A DNA stretch of 29,982 bases from Spirogloea muscicola (taxonomy: Eukaryota; Streptophyta; Zygnematophyceae; Spirogloeales; Spirogloeaceae). A model generated the notes under the pieces. The model ran no database searches. It was not told where the DNA came from and saw only the letters and a list, made by a program, of their open reading frames with translations. Below are positions 1 through 24,667 of the stretch, one piece after another (within the stretch, counting starts at the first letter, position 1; the number at the start of each line of letters is the position of its first letter). The stretch covers positions 842,988-872,969 of the forward strand of contig WELB01000017.1 in NCBI GenBank assembly GCA_009602725.1. The letters run 5' to 3'. The position numbers were made by a program, and so were the translations under genes.

Positions 1-1346
1 TCCTGCCCGCCCTCGCCCACCTGCCGCATCTGCTTGGAGTGCGACGGTGCCTGCCCCCCTCTGCCGACGCCAGCCAGCCGCGCTAGCCGCACTCCGCCCC
101 CTGCCCCCGCCCGTGCGGCGGCGGCCGTGGGGCGTCTCGCAGCGCTGGCCTGGCCTCGCCCACCATGCGCCCAATTGGCGGCTGGACACAGCCTTGACTC
201 CTCCTGTGGGGGCCCTCTGCTTGCAGGCCCCGACCTCATCGCCCCATGCAGCTGCAAGGGCACGCAAAAGTACGTGCACCGGTCCTGCCTCGACACCTGG
301 CGAGCCGCCAAGGTCTGCCCCGGCGCTTCTCCGCGCCGTCCCGGCAGGGCACCCTTGACCACCACTCACCGCTTGGCTATGAGAACGCGGCAGCTGGCGA
401 GGTCGTGGCGGGCTGGCCATGTCGCCACCAGCGACCACGCCAGGCAGCCGGGGGGCTGCCTCTCGCCTCCTCACGCTGGTGGGGCGGACTTCCTTTGCTG
501 TGCAGGAAGGCTTTGCCTTTGCCCATTGTACAGAGTGCCATGCCCCTTTCAAGATCATGCCCAACATCCCCGCGGATCGCTGGTGGAGGAAGACCGTCTT
601 TCGAGTATTTGTTGTGCGTGACCATGCGGCAATTTTCTGCCTTGTACAGCTGGTGAGTAGCGGAGTGAAGCAGGTGAAGGTGTTCCCAACATGCTCAGCT
701 CGGGCGCTTGCTCCTCTTTAGTGGGAGCACTGACCAAGGCTATCTGAGAGCAATGCCTAGATTGCATTCAGTAGTCGCTCCTGCACAGCCAATCGCGTCA
801 GGCAAGACCTGCATGTAATGGTGATCGCTGGGCCTCCCTCTATGTCTTCTTCTGACCAGTGGCCAGCGGTGGTCGCAGGTTATCCTCTTGCTTGGCTTAC
901 TGGTGTACTGCTTATTTGGGGAGGAAGTGGAGGAAGAATTTGGGTCTGAGGAGCGGCCTTATGCCTTCCACGTACTCGTTGGTAGGCATGCGACCTGCGG
1001 CAAGCCCTTACGATGAGCTGGCCTGAATATCAATGCTGGCTAGAGGGTGCAGCCGTCCACCACATGTGCAGTTGTTGTTGTTTGTGCTAGTAAAAGGCTG
1101 CATGCTGTCCCACAGCCAGCGCTACAAGCACTTGTGAGCACAGGGAAGACAGTGGTCTTGCTTCATGCTGCTTGCTATTTTATGCATGCCTTGGCTTCCT
1201 GCTGTTTCTTAGGCTGTCTTTTGGGTGCTGCAGTATGTATCATTGCAATGTCTGGCCTCCTGTACGGCTTCTTCGTAGCCATCATATGCGGCCAGAGCAT
1301 ATCGGATCGACACAACCATGTCTTACAGAAGCAGCAGCTGACCAAG
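1..1346 (+). CDS. RINGv (MARCH-type) membrane E3 ubiquitin ligase, 5'-partial and lacking its usual tail
   Basis: Five exons can be joined in phase: 1-46, 227-312, 506-652, 879-981 and 1234-1346 (165 residues). The first three encode a C4HC3 RINGv finger: CRICLEC, then a CSCKGTQKYVHRSCLDTW block, then HCTECHAPFK. Exons 3-5 carry a conserved block (RDHAAIFCLVQL), a hydrophobic segment (VILLLGLLVYCLFG) followed by an acidic stretch, and a second hydrophobic segment (GLLYGFFVAIICGQ) ending HVLQKQQLTK. This order matches plant RINGv proteins with transmembrane helices after the finger. Such proteins are membrane-anchored E3 ligases; the substrate is unknown. The protein is already inside the finger at base 1, so the start lies outside. 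Plant relatives continue after ELTK with about 30-40 conserved residues; I could not find that exon before the aquaporin exon at 1717. Family assignment is sure; the 3' end is not. Confidence 0.82.
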
Positions 1347-1426
1347 GTAGGAGCAGCAGTCCTCTTGACTCAAGCATGGCATTTGGCTTCCCAGCAGCTC
1401 GAGGGAACTACATCATTTGTACTTAA

Positions 1427-1605
1427 TTGACTGCCTCTCTCCCTCCCCTCGACCTCCCTGCCCCTCCCACCCCTCTCTCCTTTCCTTCCAAGCCTGTATT
1501 GCTTCTTCCCTTTCTTTGTCCCTCTGTTAGCCCTTCATCTCCTCCCCGTTCTCCACCTCTCCCTCTCCCACTCCACTTCTTTCCTGCCCTGGCTCTCTGC
1601 CAATG
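1427..1605 (+). repeat. Pyrimidine-rich low-complexity tract
   Basis: About 180 bases composed mostly of C and T (runs such as CTCTCTCCCTCCCC), lying between the last recognisable RINGv exon and the first recognisable aquaporin exon. It is longer than a normal polypyrimidine tract before a splice acceptor. It sits exactly where both flanking genes lose conserved sequence, so it marks a candidate rearrangement or assembly junction. The open frames through it are compositional. Confidence 0.7.
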
Positions 1606-1716
1606 GGTCCGCTGTTCTTCATCTTTCTTATCCTGCTGTCTAGAGCAATGCACAACCACAAATGTCGCGTCATCAAGTTCGCTCATTGCTGAGTGTCGTG
1701 TCTGCATGCTGTGCAG

Positions 1717-2528
1717 GACTCATTGGGGGCCACTACAGTGTCTCCCAATATCTCTTCGGGCCAGGCGTTCCTGCTCGAGACCATCCTCACGTTCATGTTC
1801 ATACTTGTGGTGTTCGGGACGGCCGTCGACCCCAAGGGCCCTGGCAGCATTGCTCCCCTGTGCATTGGCCTCGCGCTCGTCGCAGGCTTCCTCATCGCTG
1901 TCCCCTTGACAGGGGGGTCGTTCAACCCGGCCCGTTCCTTCGGACCCGCTGGTATGCTGTTCAGACCTATACTTGCGGTACTGTTGAGTCGAATGATATG
2001 CAATGCATGTGTAGAGGAGATCCTGCTAACTCAGTTGCCTGGTGTGCTGTGCAGTTTGGGCAAGTGAATACGACAGCCACTGGGTTTACTGGTTTGGACC
2101 TCTGCTTGGGTCGACCTTGGCCTGCCTCTTCTATTCTCACGTTCTCCGGCATGGTCTACGTGCACTGGACAAACCCAAGGTATACTCACTCATGAAGTCA
2201 AGAAGCTGAAGCAACATGTAGGATGCCCATCAGTCACTTTGCAACGTACTGACGCATGTTGCAAGGCAAAAGCTAAGTGGCTACTAACCGTGTGAAGGGT
2301 TAGCTGGATTTAATAGAGCTGCATTATGTCTGTCCAATGATCAGAAGGCGTAATAGCACTTTACTGAGCCTAAGCATTTCTTGTGCCCAGAATGCCGATG
2401 TGCAAAAGGTGCAGATAGTTGGTGCCTCGCCTGCAGTTGCTCAAGCAGTTGGAGGTGGAGAGAATATGAATGCAAACATCAGAGGAGTCGACGACGTTGG
2501 GCGTGCTCCACCAGATCTAATTGTATGA
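1717..2528 (+). CDS. Aquaporin (MIP family), C-terminal half only
   Basis: Three exons join in phase: 1717-1951, 2055-2179 and 2391-2528 (stop TGA). They encode the second half of a major intrinsic protein: a helix with GQAFLLETILTF, the FGTAVDPKGPG loop, a helix ending VPLTGG, the second NPA box as FNPARSFGPAV, the last helix (WVYWFGPLLGSTLACLFYSHVL) split over exon 2, and a 45-residue hydrophilic tail. Around the box the pore residues would be Gly at LE1 and Arg at LE2, with Phe tentatively at the helix-5 position, resembling TIP-like or algal MIPs more than PIPs. Aquaporins pass water or small solutes across membranes. The first half, including the first NPA box and three helices, is not found upstream; a RINGv gene occupies that space. 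By itself this would not make a normal channel. Family sure; subfamily and start unknown. Confidence 0.85.
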
Positions 2529-3334
2529 GAGGGACAAACAGGTGACAACTGCTGGCGCCCATGTACTGTGGGCCAGAAAGCAATCAGAAGTGCATTGGCA
2601 AACAGTCCTTACATTACTTGGCATTGCGATGCTTTGGCTTCTGCATCCGACGGAAGCCCTTTACATTAATGGGACTCTGCTAATGCATAGGATTTGAGGA
2701 CTCTTATGCTTGTTCGAGATTGCAAAGGGACGCCCTTTGCAATTAACTTAGGCATTGTGTCTCTCCGAAACTTCAGACACTCCAGACTCTGTGTTGCCGC
2801 TACCACTGAAGGATTAGCAGCAGCTAACTGCTCAGTCAGGCATCTACCGCTTCTTGGCCACATTTGCTGCTGTGTCGTTGCTGTGTGTCTTCACCTCCAG
2901 GGTTGTTGAACTTGGAGACGCGTTCTGGTAGAGCCAGTAGCAGGGCGAACTGCTGCTTCTCTTGACCCACTTTGAATCATTGTGACCACTGTCATGTCTT
3001 GACTTTCTCCTGCATCGTACATTTGTCACTAATGAGAAAGTTTTGGATCGAGGTACTCAATGCTTTCTGGTGCAATATACAACCAGGCGTGCCTAGGGTT
3101 GTCAAACAAGTGAGATACTCTACTAACCTGACCTGCTCACCTGAGCTTAATCAATACCTGCCAAGTCAACTCTAATGCACAGATTGACTGATCCTTTTGC
3201 AAAGGCAGAGCAGACATAGTCTCTTGGCTTATCTGAATACATCATGTGTTTGCCGAACATACGGTGACCTGTATGATAGTACATGCAATCCTGCTTGCAG
3301 AGTTGATCTAAGAGTGCTTCTCAGATCAAAAGTA
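2529..3334. other. Non-coding interval, nothing recognised
   Basis: No frame on either strand shows a recognisable domain or a phase-consistent exon chain. Short open frames of 60-70 codons occur on both strands as expected by chance. The interval separates the 3' end of the aquaporin gene from the 3' end of the converging minus-strand candidate gene. Confidence 0.5.
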
Positions 3335-4829: not shown

Positions 4830-4942
4830 GCTCTCAACTTACTTATACTTCAATCGACCTCGTGTTTTCTTGATATATATATTAACTGCACGTCGGTCTC
4901 TGCTTATGTCTACTGGTGTTTTAAAGGCCACGTTCAAAGTAC

Positions 4943-5716
4943 CTCTCTGTGATGCTGCACGTGTGCACGACCCAAAGTTGCAGTAAGGGCTTCAAGACAA
5001 CGGGGGATGAGACCGAGCTCCATAGCCAGTGGCTGAAAGGACGCGCACGTCTGGAGGATCATGGCGGCCGTCTCCCACTCCTTCACATACTCCTGTATAC
5101 GTCGCTCGCAGATGGAGACGAGATTGCCTCCGTGGCCCAAGCCTGGCCTTGTGTCATCATCCATATGCAAGGACATAGCTGCCAAAACCGTGTTGATCAT
5201 TGAATAGCATCGATTCGCACGTAGAGATGAGTTGGGTCGAGCGCAAGCTGCCCGTTTGCAGCCAGAAGGTACACTGCTAGCTGCTGCCTTACCTGCGCAG
5301 TAGAGCTGCGCTACGTTGCCAGGATTGATGTCGCACTTGAGGCCGTAGCAGAAGTTGGCGACAAGCTCAAAGGTGGCCCTGCGGCCGGGGAGCCCGACGA
5401 CGTTGACGACCAGCTTGCGTGCCGTGACGTCGTCCTCAGCAATGCTAGCGAAGTAGTCGGTCTTACAGAGGAGCTTGGCCATGTGCATCGCCATTGACGG
5501 CGCACTGCCGTCCAAGCGGACAAGGACGTCGGGCGGCACGCCCGCGGCCTGCGCCGCCCAGCGCAGGTCCGGATCCCGGAGCTCCGCGTCCTCTGGCTGC
5601 CGTTCCACCATGACTGGTTCACTCGCCGCAGCCGAGCTCGGAGCCGCGTCGCCAGGAGCGACACCATTAGTCGACGACGATGATCGGGACGGCGGCGCGA
5701 GCGCGAGCATCGCCAT
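4943..5716 (-). CDS. Truncated BTB-NPH3 protein (paralogue 1, BTB plus linker only)
   Basis: Exon 1 runs 5716-5293 and exon 2 5178-4943; they join in phase 1 to give CAAMSLHMDDD, matching the RCAAEYL junction of the family. The 220-residue product has an Ala/Ser-rich N-terminus, a BTB/POZ domain (from DVLVRLDG through KTDYF and ELVANFCYG) and the following helical linker ending near IPRCLEAL. A good donor (GAG|GTACTT) follows, but no NPH3-domain exon exists downstream; about 110 bases later the possible start of another minus-strand gene appears. Paralogues 2 and 3 in this window continue for a further 350-400 residues. NPH3 proteins usually act as adaptors for cullin-3 and phototropins; BTB alone would keep only dimerisation or cullin contact. 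It may be a decaying copy or a short BTB-only product. Exon 2 read past its donor stops after two more codons. Confidence 0.8.
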
Positions 5717-5740
5717 CGCACCAGGCGGCCCAGAGCACTC

Positions 5741-12827: not shown

Positions 12828-13334
12828 GGTGTGATCCGCAACAGGCTGGAGATGGACGTCTCCTCAAGCTCAAGCTCCGAGTGGCGTCGGAGGCAACAGA
12901 GAGGTGGCGAGCTTAGCGCCTCAGGAAGCGCCACCAGATGGCCAGCAATATGCGTGATCGGCGGCGGCGGCGGCGGCTGCAGCGGCGCCGGCGCCGACGC
13001 GCCCGGGGCGCGGATGCGGCGCACGCCGAGAGGCTGAGCAGCTAAAGGAATGGGAGCGGGGCGCGCCTCCCTCCTTCCTGTCATTGTCACTGTCATGACG
13101 ACCCTCTGAGAGTTACTATCAGCAGCCGCGTTCTTCCCTCCGGCCCTCCCTCGTCCGTCGACAGTGCTGCAGGAGGCCCTCGCGAGGTCCGCGCCGCCGT
13201 TGGCGCGCACGAAGCGGGCCTGGCGGACGGGACCGCGGCTGGGGGGCCGGGCGTGCGGTCTTGTCCATGGCCGCCGGCCCCTGGACGGGACGGCCCGCTG
13301 TGGCGGCTGCGGGCGCAGGGAGCGGGGGGGAGGG

Positions 13335-13337
<3 letters not shown>

Positions 13338-13426
<89 letters not shown>

Positions 13427-13459
13427 CGAGAGCGAGAGAGAGAGGGGGAGAGAGAGAGC
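13338..13459. repeat. (GA)n microsatellite
   Basis: About 83 bases of uninterrupted GA dinucleotides from 13338 to 13420, then CGAGAG variants and a short G-run interruption to about 13459. GA/CT tracts upstream of genes can bind GAGA-type factors and expose chromatin in plants; here it lies midway between two divergent NPH3 genes. Its length is likely variable between individuals and prone to assembly error. Confidence 0.95.
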
Positions 13460-13727
13460 TTGAGGAAAGGGGGTGGGGCGGCAATGCAGCAGCGAAGGTG
13501 CACTAGGAGCGGCCAACCTAAAGGCATGCCGAGCATCGAGCACTCACGACCTGCTTGCAGTGGGCCCACATTGACGGCCAGCCTTGGCCTGCTTCCCACT
13601 CCACGTCCAGCGGAGCTCGCTGAGCGCCACGCAGTACTCGAGCCGGCGAGGGCGCTCATTGCCGCTGTGCAGCTCATGTTGGCGGCAGTGTAGTGGGGAG
13701 TCCTCTGGAAGAAAGCGCGGCCAGATT

Positions 13728-14240: not shown

Positions 14241-17200
14241 CCGCTGTCCGCGCCGCCGCCGCCCGGCCGCGGCAATGGGCCCGCCGGCGGCGGCGAGGCG
14301 CAGGCTGTGGCGCAGGCGCAGCTCCAGGACCAGCAGCAGCAGCGCGACGTCGCCGAGCTGAAGGAGCTAGAGCGGCAGTGGATGAAGGCTGCGGGCATGC
14401 AGTCGGATCTGCTCGTCTCCGTCGGCGGAGTCGAGTACTCGGTCCACAAGTTCCCACTCTACTCCAAGACTGACTACTTCTCCCGCATCGCGAAAGACGA
14501 TGAGGCCTCCGGAAAGACGCATGTCGAGGTCGTGGGCCTCCCTGGCACTGAGCACATTTTCAAGCTCGTCGCCAATTTCTGCTACGGCCTCAGCCTCAAC
14601 ATCGACCCGAGTAACATCGCGCAGCTGCGCTGTGCTGGTGAGCTCCATCTGCCAGCCTGCAGCCACGACCAGCTTGCTCAAAGCTCCAGGGACTTGGTGC
14701 GGATGCCATCAATGACGACCTTCCGCGTCCTCTGACCATGCTGCTTCACAGCCACATACCTCCATATGGACGACGACACGAGGTCGGGCATGGGTTACGA
14801 GGGGAATCTTGTGTCATGGGCGGAGCAATATCTTCAGGAGTACCTCAAGGACTGGAGAAAAGCTGCCATCATCTTACAAGCATGCGGCACACTCCAGCCC
14901 ATGGCAACCAATCTCGGCCTCGTCTCTCGTTGTGTTGACGCCCTCACAGCAGCCTCGGCGCAGCAGTACAAGGAGGTGAGATCAGCACGCACAGGAAGTA
15001 GGAGCAGCGGCCAAAATTACATAACTATCTGGTTGAATGGACATTGCGTGGACAATGAAAGTAGGACTGAGGAGATTGAATTCAGCATACTTTGTCAGGC
15101 AGGATATTCCCCACACATGACTGGAGCTCGTAGCCAACACCTGCACAGCATGACTATCAAGAAAAGATGAATGATGGATGCTTTGAGACGACTGAGGAAG
15201 GTACACAATGGGCAGAGTGTCTCATTGACACACTGATTATCTTTGCAGGAGGCTCGTCTTACGGAGCCCATATTCATGGCCCAGCCCATACTGGATCTTC
15301 AACTTGACATGTTCAAGAGATTGACAGAAGGCCTGCGCGAGAATGGTGTGCCAGAAGTCGACATCAGTCGCTTGATTGAAGCCTACGGCCATCGCTGGCT
15401 ACCCGACCTCACGCAACTACTTGTTCTCATGGAGAGCCCTCAGGTGCTTCTTAGCTTCTTCTTGAATACAAGCTGCACCAGCACATCTCGAAGATTGTCC
15501 AGATTATCTACAAGTAAGAAGGCAGGGGGCTTTTGCGGCAGTCAAGAGAATTTGTGATTTAATCTTAATAGCATTGAGTCTTTGCCATTCACTGCAGGCA
15601 GATACATCCATGTTCTCTGTATGGCGGAACACTCTTGAAGTATTGGCGCAGTTGCTTCCAAGGGACAAGAGCGCAATTTCCATGGCCCACATCCTTCGTC
15701 TCTTGCGTATGTCCATGGCTCTTAAGACCAGGTTGTGACCTTCATACCTCATGACGCTTGACCTGAGGTCGTTGAGCATTGCCCTCAATGCAAGGCTGAC
15801 ATTGCTGATTGTCAAGATGGATGTGACGAGCCTGCTATAGCTTATAAGCAGTAATTTGGACCTGCAGTCACCAACTCCCTGTGAAGCAGTCAGCCGATGA
15901 GTTGCTGCGCTGAGCTTGGTTGTCGCAGTAAGGACTCGAGAAGTCAGCTACACAAACGAGCCGGGGAGCACTTCAACCAGGCTAATGTCGCCGACCTTCT
16001 ACTTCTTGAAATCAGTGACGTTCAGGTAGTTTCGAAATGTCGTGAAACAACAGCTTACAATTACCCAACTTTGTGTAGGATGTATGCACTTGCACCTGTG
16101 GAAAAGTCTGTTATGTCCACCTGGAAATCCAAGTGTGTGCCAAGGACTACATAAGCGCAGCTCTTGATGCGGTCGGCTGTTGCCACCACGCCAGACTGCA
16201 TAAGCCGAGCAGGCCTTCCGATTTCTGCTTGATGCCAGGGCTTGGTTACACGTTTCACGTCTGAAGAACACGTCAGTATGCTGTCCGAAGCTGGAAAGGC
16301 AGTCCAGGCAGCTGCAGCTCTTGTTGACAGTTATCTCCAGGAGGCTTCGAAGGATGTCAAGGGGGTCAATATTGTCTCTTTCAAGTCGCTTGCCACTTGC
16401 CTTCCGCCAGAGTCACGCCCTAGTCATGACGCACTCTACTGGGCAATTGCAAGCTTTGTCGATGCAAATGGCCAGGTGAGCCTTCTGAGACATCGACGTT
16501 ATAGTAACTAAGACTTCATGAAATGTACGACCCACTGGCACGGGCACGTTGTAATGACTTCATAGCATTGTATCGTTTCTCGTGCATTTTACTGGGACTA
16601 TGCACTATCCTTAACATTGACGAACATTGCCGCAGACATTAACAGCAGTGTCTAGGGAACACGACCTTCTGGACTTGCTGAACATCCTCTCGGCAGCGCG
16701 GTGTTCTGAGGCAGTTGCTGAGCACGCCAGCAAATTCAAGGTATTACAAGTGCAGTGTGGTCAGGTTGTTGAATGGTCATACAGGTACAGACCACATTAA
16801 TAATTACTAGCAACCATTGGCCTGCGGCATGATGCTTCATTAGCTTCTGCTCCTGTGCACCGTCATGAGCTTGCTCTCCTCTTCATTGAAGACCTCCTCA
16901 GGTTGAGGTCCATTATTACCTGACTGCGTGATTGTCCAGGCGTGGCCGCTCCCATTTGTAGCCGATGTGCTAGTGTGGCAGAAATTGTACTACAAGGAGA
17001 AAGCCGACCTAGTAGTCAAAAGGCATCAAGGCCTGTTGGAGGCTTGTCAACTGGCAGCAGTAGACAACACGAAGCTCAAGGTAAACGGTAATTTAGGTCT
17101 ACACTTTTTGCTACCATCATACGGGACCACTCCTAGAGCTAAGTGTGGTAAGAACGCAGCTTTCATCGTGCAAAACTGCAACCCAAAGATCAGAGTGCTT

Positions 17201-21003: not shown

Positions 21004-24000
21004 ATGGCGGCGGACGGCGGCTCGTTCGAGGTGGACCTCCCCGGTGCGGCGCCCGGCGCGGTCGTGACGCGCTTCCCGCCGGAGCCCAGCGGGTACCTCC
21101 ACATCGGGCACGCCAAGGCCGCTTTGCTTGACCAGTACTTTGCGCGCAAATACGGCGGCCGCCTCATTGTTCGCTTCGACGACACCAACCCGGCCAAGGA
21201 GAAGGAGGAGTTCGTGGACGAAATCCTGGCCGACCTTGCCACGCTCGGGATCAAAGCCGACCAGATTACCTACACTTCCGACTACTTCCCGCAGCTCCTG
21301 GTGAGGTTCAGGCTTTAGGGTCCAGGGTTTAGGGTTAAGGTCAAGGGGTTTGGGATTTAGGGTTTAGGGCTGTGGCTTCTGCTGCAGTCTGTTGTGATGC
21401 CTCTGCTGGCATTTCCTTTTCGTAGTCTTGTCCTGGATATATTTTACTTTGCGCTCCCCAGCCGCAAGCAGAGGCCAAATTGCTATATGACCCCACAGAA
21501 CTCTGAGCTGATTATCATTGTGATATAGTCTAAGTCATTCCTGACTCTGCTGCATACCATTTGGTGGCGGGCTACATTTGCATAGGAGCTGGCAGAGAAC
21601 CTCATTGGGGAGGGGAAGGCGTACGTGGACGACACGGCGCTGGAGCGCATGCGCGAGGAGCGCATGGAAGGCATCGAGTCCGTGCGGCGCAGCCAGGCCG
21701 TGAATGAGAACATCCGAATGTGGCAGGAGATGAAGGCTGGGTCGTCGGCGGGCCGGATGTGCTGCCTCCGAGGCAAGATGGACATGACTGTGAGCGCTCC
21801 TGCAGCCTCCCACCCAATCTCGCGCCGTCCATCCCTGATCAAACTCTTGACGACGGCTTTTAGGGGTTGGTGTTAGGATCTTGGTGTTTGCTGAATCCTG
21901 AAGCACATAAGGGTTGAAATGGTTGGTCAGGGTGTTAGGCTAAGGCCTCTGAGTCAATGGCAGGATTCAGATTAAGATATTGGGTGAAGGAGGGTGAAAG
22001 ATTGAATCGTATTGATCTCAGGTAGAAGGTCAGGTTAAGTCTTTGTCTTCGTCCTCCGTCTGGCTCTGAGTGCCTATAATTATCTCGTTTGTTAACGCTA
22101 AAAAATTGGTAAGCCTACCATTGCTGTCCTGGATTGACTGTTTTCTAAGTCCCATTGCTTCACAATGTGGTGAGCTCATACAAGAACTGCATGTGCTGAC
22201 CACGGCCAGGCGGCGAACAAGGCGATGCGAGACCCGGTGTACTATCGCTGCTTGCTGATGCCGCATCACCGTGTTGGGGACAAGTACAATGTGTACCCCA
22301 CGTATGACTTTGCATGCCCAGTGGTGGACAGCGTTGAGGGCGTCACACATGCACTGCGGTCTAGCGAGTACCACGATCGCAATGAGCAGTACTATCGCGT
22401 ACTGGAGGTGAACCTCCACTTAACCCTTGCACACTATTCTCCATATAAGCTTGCGCTTCTGAAGGTTCAGGATCATGTCTCAGCTTTATTGTGAGGCTGT
22501 TCAGTAAGCAGAATGCCTGTGCCGGATATCGACTTGGATGGGTGCGCAAATGTTGCGTTCTGGTAAAGACCATGGTTGAGCAGATTCTAAATGCATATAT
22601 GCCCCTCCTGCCTCCTAACCATCAATTTGCTCGACTCTGCTGACAGTGATTGGCACCTTGTCGTCCAACAGGACCTGGGACTTCGCAAGGTGCACGTCTG
22701 GGACTTCAGCCGCCTCAACTTCCAGTACACACTGCTGTCTAAGCGCAAGCTGCAGTGGTTTGTAGACAACGGCAAGGTCGAGGGTTGGGACGACCCACGA
22801 TTCCCTACCGTGCAAGGCTTGGTGCGCCGGGGACTCACTGTCGAGGCGCTCACGCAGTTCATCTTATCCCAGGTGTTGCTCCCTTGCAGTCAAGCTCTTG
22901 ATACACTTATGCCGAGCCCACTATTGTACATATGTAGTGCACTTTGCTCATAGAGCAGTTTGTCGCTCTTGCTTTAAGTGGTGTACTGCTCTTTTTTAAC
23001 GATGTCTTATCTGCTACAAAATATTTCTGGCTCAGCTCTTCCCCTGATAAGACATGTGCTACGTATACGAAGCTTGGGGTGACATACAATTTCCTAGGAG
23101 GCATGCTCTCCAATTGCTCAATCTATCATTGGTCATAGCAAATAGTTGAGAGTATCTGTTCAGCAGATTGAGAAAAGTTAGTTGCTGGTCCAGATGTTGA
23201 AACTCCAGATGTGATACTCCAATTCAGGGCGCTTCCAAGAATCTAAATTTGATGGAGATGGACAAGCTTTGGACAATGAACAAGAAGGTCATTGACCCCG
23301 TATGTCCGCGGCACACTGCCGTGCTGGTGGACGGCCGCGTGCCCTTGGAGCTTGCCAATGGGCCGGAGGAGCCATTTGTGCGCGTTGTGCCCAAGCACAA
23401 GAAGTACGAGCCCGCTGGTGAGGAATTCAGAGGCTCAGGGCTTAAGCCATTACTAACTTGATTCAGAGCTAGGGTCAATGCTTCAGGGTCTGGATCAGGA
23501 CTAACGTGCTCTGGTTGCTCGATATGGTGTATGGACAGAATGCTGAAGAGGACACTGCTTTCAGAGGGTCAAGGCTTCGTTTTCAGAGGGCCAAAGCCCA
23601 TCTCATCTCTGTCCTTCATTTTGTTGTGGCTGGCAGGACTGAAGGCGACGACTTTTGCACGGCGAGTCTGGCTTGAGCAAGCGGATGCTGCGGCGGTGGC
23701 TGAGGGCGAGGAGGTGACACTCATGGACTGGGGAAACGCCTTTGTGCGGCGGGTAGTGCGGACTGAAGACGGCGGCGCGGTGGCGGCACTGGAGGGAGAC
23801 CTCCACATCGAGGGAGATGTGAAGAAGACCAAGCTGAAGCTCACATGGCTGGCCGACATGGACGAGCTTGTCCCGCTGACGCTCGTCGAGCTCGACAACC
23901 TGATCACGAAGAAGAAGGTACCGACGTCAATACCTCCCTCCCCTCTACTTATATGTGATCCAGACTTTCGAGCTTGCTATTTGTACTGATTCTCAGCTAG

Positions 24001-24667
24001 TATTTGGGCTTGGGGTCTCGATTGGCATGAGAAGCCTGATTGGCGTCAGAGCATGACACAAGTTCGCTGTCACAGGTCGTGAGGGCTCAGAGGTTAGTGG
24101 CGATGCATAGGTAAAATAGTGCGATACATTGCAGTAGCTGGCTAACCTGAAGGGTGAGACTGCTTAATACTCACAAGCTGGCATGCGGCCTACTGCCAGC
24201 TGGAGGACGACGAGGACTTCACCACGGTTCTCAACCCGCGCACGCGAACGGAGACGGCGGCGTTGGGCGATGCTAACATGCGCAACGTGAAGAAGGGCGA
24301 CATCCTGCAGCTGGAGCGCAAGGGCTACTTCATCTGCGACGCTCCGTACCTGCGCCAGACTCGACCGGCAGTGCTGATCGCCATCCCGGACGGGCGCGCG
24401 CCCAAGGCCAAGGAGGCGCCGCCTGCTGCAGCGGCAGTGCCTGAGCCGCCGAAGCTGTCCAAGAAGCAGCGCGAGGCAGCCAAGCGGGAGGCGCAGAGGA
24501 AGAAGGAGCAGGAGAAGCTCGCAGAGGGCGGAGCTGAGCCGCCCGCCACCGCCGAGGGCAGCACCGAGAACGGGCTGCTGCGGCCGGCGACGGACGAGCT
24601 GACTAGCCTGAGCCTGCAGGACGGAACGTCGGCGCCGACACAACAAGCAGCAATGGAGCTGGTCTAG
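21004..24667 (+). CDS. Glutamate-tRNA ligase, eukaryotic cytosolic type
   Basis: Seven exons join in phase: 21004-21300, 21586-21789, 22210-22407, 22672-22872, 23228-23417, 23637-23917 and 24200-24667 (TAG), giving 612 residues. The enzyme charges tRNA-Glu with glutamate using ATP in the cytosol. The class I HIGH signature is at residues 33-36 ([13 protein letters not shown]) and the KMSKS equivalent is LLSKRKL at about 254-260; [32 protein letters not shown] and [10 protein letters not shown] support GluRS rather than GlnRS. The anticodon-binding beta-barrels follow, then a Lys/Glu/Ala-rich tail (about 540-612) with [18 protein letters not shown]. Plant cytosolic relatives usually carry an N-terminal GST-like domain; this start (GCCATGG context after a GGC repeat) goes directly into the catalytic fold. 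The tail may supply the tRNA affinity that domain gives. Confidence 0.95.
21301..21373 (+). repeat. Degenerate telomere-like heptamers in synthetase intron 1
   Basis: Starting at the intron 1 donor, the plus strand carries repeated TTTAGGG and near variants (CTTTAGGG, GTTTAGGG, GATTTAGGG). Similar but weaker GGGTTCAGGG-like sequence precedes the gene near 20930-20970. Confidence 0.85.

Follow-up and report, generated by a model that had tools for sequence, protein, structure and literature searches.

An apparent RINGv ligase-aquaporin fusion in Spirogloea muscicola is probably an assembly break at a pyrimidine tract

Overview of the locus

The apparent fusion of a RINGv ligase gene to the second half of an aquaporin gene in Spirogloea muscicola is best read as a break or misjoin of the assembly at a tract that is difficult to assemble, to which we give a probability of about 0.7. 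The window, that is, the whole stretch of 29,982 nucleotides that was analysed, corresponds to C17:842988-872969, and the half-aquaporin that it carries has collinear copies on contigs C9 and C22. According to the preferred reading, the assembly would fail at a strand-asymmetric pyrimidine tract within an aquaporin intron, and in each homeolog the upstream exons with the first NPA box would lie beyond that tract and be missing from the assembly searched. On C17, a 1.4-kb stretch carrying most of an unrelated RINGv gene would have been attached to the contig end near 1430|1431; on C22, the attached sequence would be an arm of an exact inverted repeat; and on C9 the contig simply stops in N. In favour of this reading are the change point common to the three copies, the runs of N, the inverted repeat, the low Ka/Ks values and the behaviour of a second tract in the window.

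The S. muscicola genome is described as triplicated in passages of two earlier papers (PMC9065682, PMC7994812), and the published assembly is given in a passage of a third as 174 Mb in 17,449 scaffolds with an N50 of 566.4 kb (PMC9915684). Our genome-wide searches covered 153 Mb in 471 contigs, so about 21 Mb of small scaffolds were outside the searches and the missing pieces may be there. The locus was unreported in those parts of the literature on aquaporin and RING-variant fusions and on aquaporins of streptophyte algae or Spirogloea that were covered.

The RINGv gene

Five plus-strand RINGv exons, separated by GT-AG introns, form one open frame. The first (1-46) is cut at its 5' end by the window edge and carries the CRIC ligand pair; the second (227-312) matches the Pfam RINGv profile and carries PCSC...HRSC; the third (506-652) carries the HCTEC ligand pair and the start of the first hydrophobic segment and resembles the exon EGFAFAHCTTC of a paralog on C120; the fourth (879-981) continues the first hydrophobic segment, as judged by hydropathy; and the last one present (1213-1346), delimited by its open frame and by comparison with the paralog, ends in ...LQKQQLTK at a phase-0 donor. 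The C4HC3 ligands that define the motif (CRIC, CSC, HRSC and HCTEC) are legible across the first three exons, eight metal ligands in all. The RINGv profile (PF12906) scored 37.3 bits against a cut-off of 21.6 over positions 13-35 of 47, for a translated stretch (1-306) that contains an intron. The hydropathy scan found two hydrophobic segments in the RINGv part.

The gene resembles the paralogs on C120 and C240, which are plant-type RING-CH membrane ligases with PF12906, in its C4HC3 ligands, in the hydrophobic segments that follow the RING and in an exon ending in LTK or LAK at a phase-0 donor. It differs from them at the 3' end. The C120 paralog has a phase-0 donor at the residue matching 1346, followed by an intron, a tail exon EYIVEDIHGDYTPPTLNPKDEARLRALGLL and a stop; the C17 gene has no such tail exon (EYIVED...GLL), so its tail is missing where it would be expected, in agreement with the sequence-only reading that the conserved tail is lost after 1346. 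The C120 paralog also has a cysteine-rich stretch between its hydrophobic segments that is absent from the C17 gene. The tail, which is plant-like, was found in the genome on C120 and C240 only (two matches, E up to 10), and a six-frame motif scan of the window gave a single, unconvincing match on the plus strand near 18.7 kb.

Six PF12906 matches were found in the genome (C140, C240, C120, C17, C8, and C42), and the same profile search gave no match on C9, C22, C6 or C420. When window positions 1-1430 were used as a DNA query against the genome, the only match was the query itself. These 1,430 bases are all of the assembled sequence between the upstream N and the aquaporin intron on C17: the whole of C17:816000-842987 (about 27 kb read) is N. 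The stop-free frame reported with the RINGv match is 26,605 codons long, suggesting that about 80 kb of N lie upstream of the gene. The N runs could perhaps be something other than assembly gaps.

The half-aquaporin and its homeologs

The next recognisable exons encode the second half of an aquaporin. The first of these (1717-1951, plus strand, phase-0 acceptor at 1716) contains NPARS, the second NPA box, and is followed by exons at 2055-2179 and 2391-2528, all three forming one open frame to a TGA at 2526-2528; the first two were defined by the MIP profile and the open frame and the last by a frame that is open also on C9 and C22. The MIP profile (PF00230, length 222) matched over positions 116-195 (71.5 bits) and 194-222 (29.4 bits). 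Since the match starts at position 116, the first half of the aquaporin is missing; the claim that the exon at 1717 belongs to an aquaporin lacking its first NPA box thus holds. The closest solved structure was the plant TIP2-1 (5i32, E 1.7e-34). The locus is like other aquaporins in its NPARS-bearing second half and its intact C-terminus, and differs from them in that none of the three homeologs had a first half with the first NPA box next to it in the assembly searched.

The search for first halves was made with two profiles. The genome search with PF00230 (26 matches at E up to 0.001, 33 at E up to 10) revealed no exon of a first half close to the C17, C9 or C22 copies, and all first-half matches among the 33 adjoin second-half matches of their own gene. 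A custom profile, built from five first halves of this genome and one PDB stretch, was run on 3,619 frames taken from the window and from 13 loci and found nothing convincing near the three copies; its top matches were the first halves on C7, C50, and C90, of which C90 is part of the profile and C7 and C50 are not.

The half-aquaporin and the 13 kb downstream of it have two collinear copies, one on C9 (plus strand) and one on C22 (minus strand). Similarity is 82-86% in the long aligned pieces, 67% and 73% in two shorter ones on C22, and 91.5% in the last C9 piece (14244-15687). These are probably three aquaporin homeologs left by the genome triplication. Frames, splice sites and stop are intact in all three, and Ka/Ks over 165 codons (Nei-Gojobori, point values without variance) was 0.095 for C17-C9, 0.185 for C17-C22 and 0.241 for C9-C22, by which all three copies look to be under purifying selection. 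Because Ka/Ks is between 0.10 and 0.24 and the frames are intact, each copy would have belonged to a whole gene during most of the period that followed the duplication.

Between C17 and C9, the stretch 1450-1716 is 95.9% identical, compared with two remaining aquaporin introns that are 83.8% and 85.8% identical. In shorter stretches, C17 was 96-99% like C9 over 1450-1872, intron included, and then 84-93% over 1873-3300; isolated 100-bp stretches beyond this are also 96% alike. The pattern looks like a tract of exchange or conversion between the two homeologs that ends near 1872. The high intron identity suggests past exchange between both copies, which neither a misjoin nor a rearrangement explains.

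On C9 and C22 the aquaporin is preceded by a kinase-like gene, whose best third match is C420:888-5799. The true collinear copy is at C9:1161.1-1166.1k; a block at C22 728.3-729.6k had been considered as collinear with C9 and was rejected, as it is a partial further copy of the kinase-like gene. Partial matches to this gene were also found on C52 and C184. On C420, the interval 888-32119 contains one long and several partial matches to the histidine-kinase-like gene together with shared spacer pieces; the gene has a HATPase_c match above the cut-off and a PAS match below it.

The junction

The most likely junction, from 20-mer counts and a tract scan, is 1430|1431, the homeologous aquaporin intron starting at or near 1431. 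The pyrimidine tract on the plus strand (1431-1605, 84.6% C+T), which forms part of the aquaporin intron, aligns with C9 from 1444 and ranks second in the window for strand asymmetry among 175-bp stretches. The 153 Mb searched contain only two copies of the 20-mer at 1431-1450, one on C17 and one on C22, each in front of the same aquaporin exon. On C9, a run of 9,523 N ends at the base that aligns with 1444, and on C22 an inverted repeat (719283-727411) starts six bases from the matching 20-mer (719258-719277). The points at which the three homeologs change therefore lie within about 18 bases, in or at the pyrimidine tract. The inverted repeat spans 8.1 kb; the two arms agree at every base over 3,937 bp and differ only in the central 120 or so columns. 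The arm beside the kinase-like gene may be the original, though not clearly so: the arms carry dispersed repeats and pieces that also occur along C420 (best 40 of 6,588 candidates scored).

The join of RINGv to aquaporin is absent on C22, and C9 reads N at this place. No RINGv gene was found on C22, where the 14.6 kb upstream of the tract are free of N. The RINGv side of the joined intron (1347-1430, plus strand) had no detectable match to the left flank of the tract on C22: compared with a null of 2,000 real genomic pieces, the fraction at or above the observed score was 0.12 for 1347-1430 and 0.25 and 0.26 for longer queries. Two true introns used as controls scored 325 and 753 against null 95% values of 126 and 211, the null maxima being about as high as the controls as the pool includes homeologous copies. 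A letter-shuffle test (300 shuffles) had given a borderline similarity between the RINGv intron and the C22 flank (106 against a null 95% of 105), which the genomic null rejected.

A second tract and the gap edges

The window's two most strand-asymmetric 175-bp stretches begin at 13311 (92% purine) and at 1431 (85% pyrimidine), and the next reaches 67%. The former is a (GA)n-rich tract (13311-13485, plus strand) in the left part of which both homeologs stop at N, C9 at 13356 and C22 at 13333. Thus, when the smaller N-free alignment interruptions (e.g., near 5903-5921 on C9 and 6498-10731 on C22) are left out, four of the five homeolog edges at N or at the inverted repeat that face the window are at the two strongest tracts (C9 at 1444 and 13356; C22 at 1431 and 13333). 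The fifth, where C9 resumes at 14244, is away from any tract.

Three of 13 gap edges, two of them flanking one gap, had a 100-bp stretch with at least 87% of one base class within 400 bp, compared with at most 0.55% of random places (n = 2,000). At the other ten, which include the N edges of the window at 1, 14057, and 14241, the assembled side lacked a strong tract. Two of these ten are the (GA)n edges of C9 and C22, where the assembled sequence ends at the beginning of the tract.

Misjoin or real rearrangement

Assembly misjoins and gaps at low-complexity tracts are known. The locus resembles such cases in that the three homeologs show, at one tract, a contig end, a stretch of N and an inverted repeat whose arms are identical. 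An assembly problem at the pyrimidine tract had been offered from the sequence alone as one of the alternatives, beside a deletion and exon shuffling, and it became the best supported of them: three copies change within the same few bases and a second tract stops both homeologs. We infer an artificial join on C17, with the missing first halves and RINGv tail located in unassembled DNA or in small scaffolds. Several observations argue against a misjoin. The C17 contig has no N across 1430|1431, and most gap edges lack a strong tract. The rarity of the 20-mer at 1431-1450 means that a common-repeat word was not the cause. A genuine duplication, if recent, can also give a perfect inverted repeat, and the C17-C9 identity in the intron is unexplained by a simple collapse and points to a real exchange.

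A real translocation or deletion in the third subgenome, with breaks in the RINGv and aquaporin introns at a fragile pyrimidine tract and truncation of both genes, is the main alternative, though an unlikely one; any spliced product would then be a by-product of the break. Pyrimidine tracts are hot spots of rearrangement, both breaks would be intronic, and the collinearity of the third copy shifts at this place. The best third match of the upstream side is C6:424.8-437.9k among the matches listed (best 40 of 8,719 and of 1,572 candidates scored) and that of the kinase-like gene is on C420, while the third copy of the downstream side is C17. However, the change on C22 falls at the same point and C9 is N there, so separate events would be needed at one place, and the 153-Mb genome yielded no reciprocal product in the form of an aquaporin first half or of an additional RINGv tail.

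A whole aquaporin gene with a RINGv gene nested in one very long intron, its first exons inside the upstream N, is far less probable still. The 27 kb of N directly upstream and the 26,605-codon stop-free frame would leave room for such exons, but the missing RINGv tail is left unexplained and the RINGv gene was not found on C22.

An improbable reading: a ligase-channel fusion protein

From the sequence it had been proposed that the locus could express a ligase-channel chimera, the exon ending at 1346 being spliced to the one that starts at 1717. A genuine join would amount to a naturally occurring ligase-channel fusion, and RING ligases that act on plant aquaporins exist. The two parts would be open in frame to the TGA with canonical splice sites, phase 0 to phase 0, and all eight RINGv metal ligands can be read. 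The statement that the join keeps the frame was confirmed, with the qualification that agreement in phase is close to a coin-flip. Three of the five RINGv donors and two of the three aquaporin acceptors are phase 0 and the remainder are phase 1, so a random donor-acceptor pair of the two genes would match about half the time and phase is weak evidence.

The aquaporin half of such a chimera would have one NPA box of two. Two hydrophobic segments would leave the end of the RINGv part in the cytosol, but the aquaporin half begins in loop C, which in aquaporins is on the outer side; this topology argument is indicative only, as the hydropathy scan found two of the three expected segments in the aquaporin half. 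The expressed chimera was not supported, given two homeologs of the aquaporin half that look to be under purifying selection, a C22 copy on which no RINGv gene was found and the finding that 1-1430 matches only itself as DNA, and we consider a working fusion protein highly improbable. It is just as improbable that a transcribed RINGv-aquaporin gene was born by translocation after the triplication and encodes a ligase tethered to an aquaporin half, which could pair with other aquaporins and mark them for degradation.

Implications and other features of the window

The locus illustrates that, in a polyploid alga, an apparent fusion can be judged from its own homeologs. Gene models that adjoin pyrimidine or purine tracts in this assembly, among them those of the aquaporin, the RINGv gene and the neighbouring kinase-like gene, could be chimeric or cut short, with consequences for gene-family counts.

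Two features further downstream were also recorded. A 268-codon open frame on the minus strand (4937-5740) may resemble a plant NPH3/BTB protein, but had no Pfam match at E 0.01. On the plus strand, frames in 23462-24664 carry the anticodon-binding domain of class I (E and Q) tRNA synthetases.
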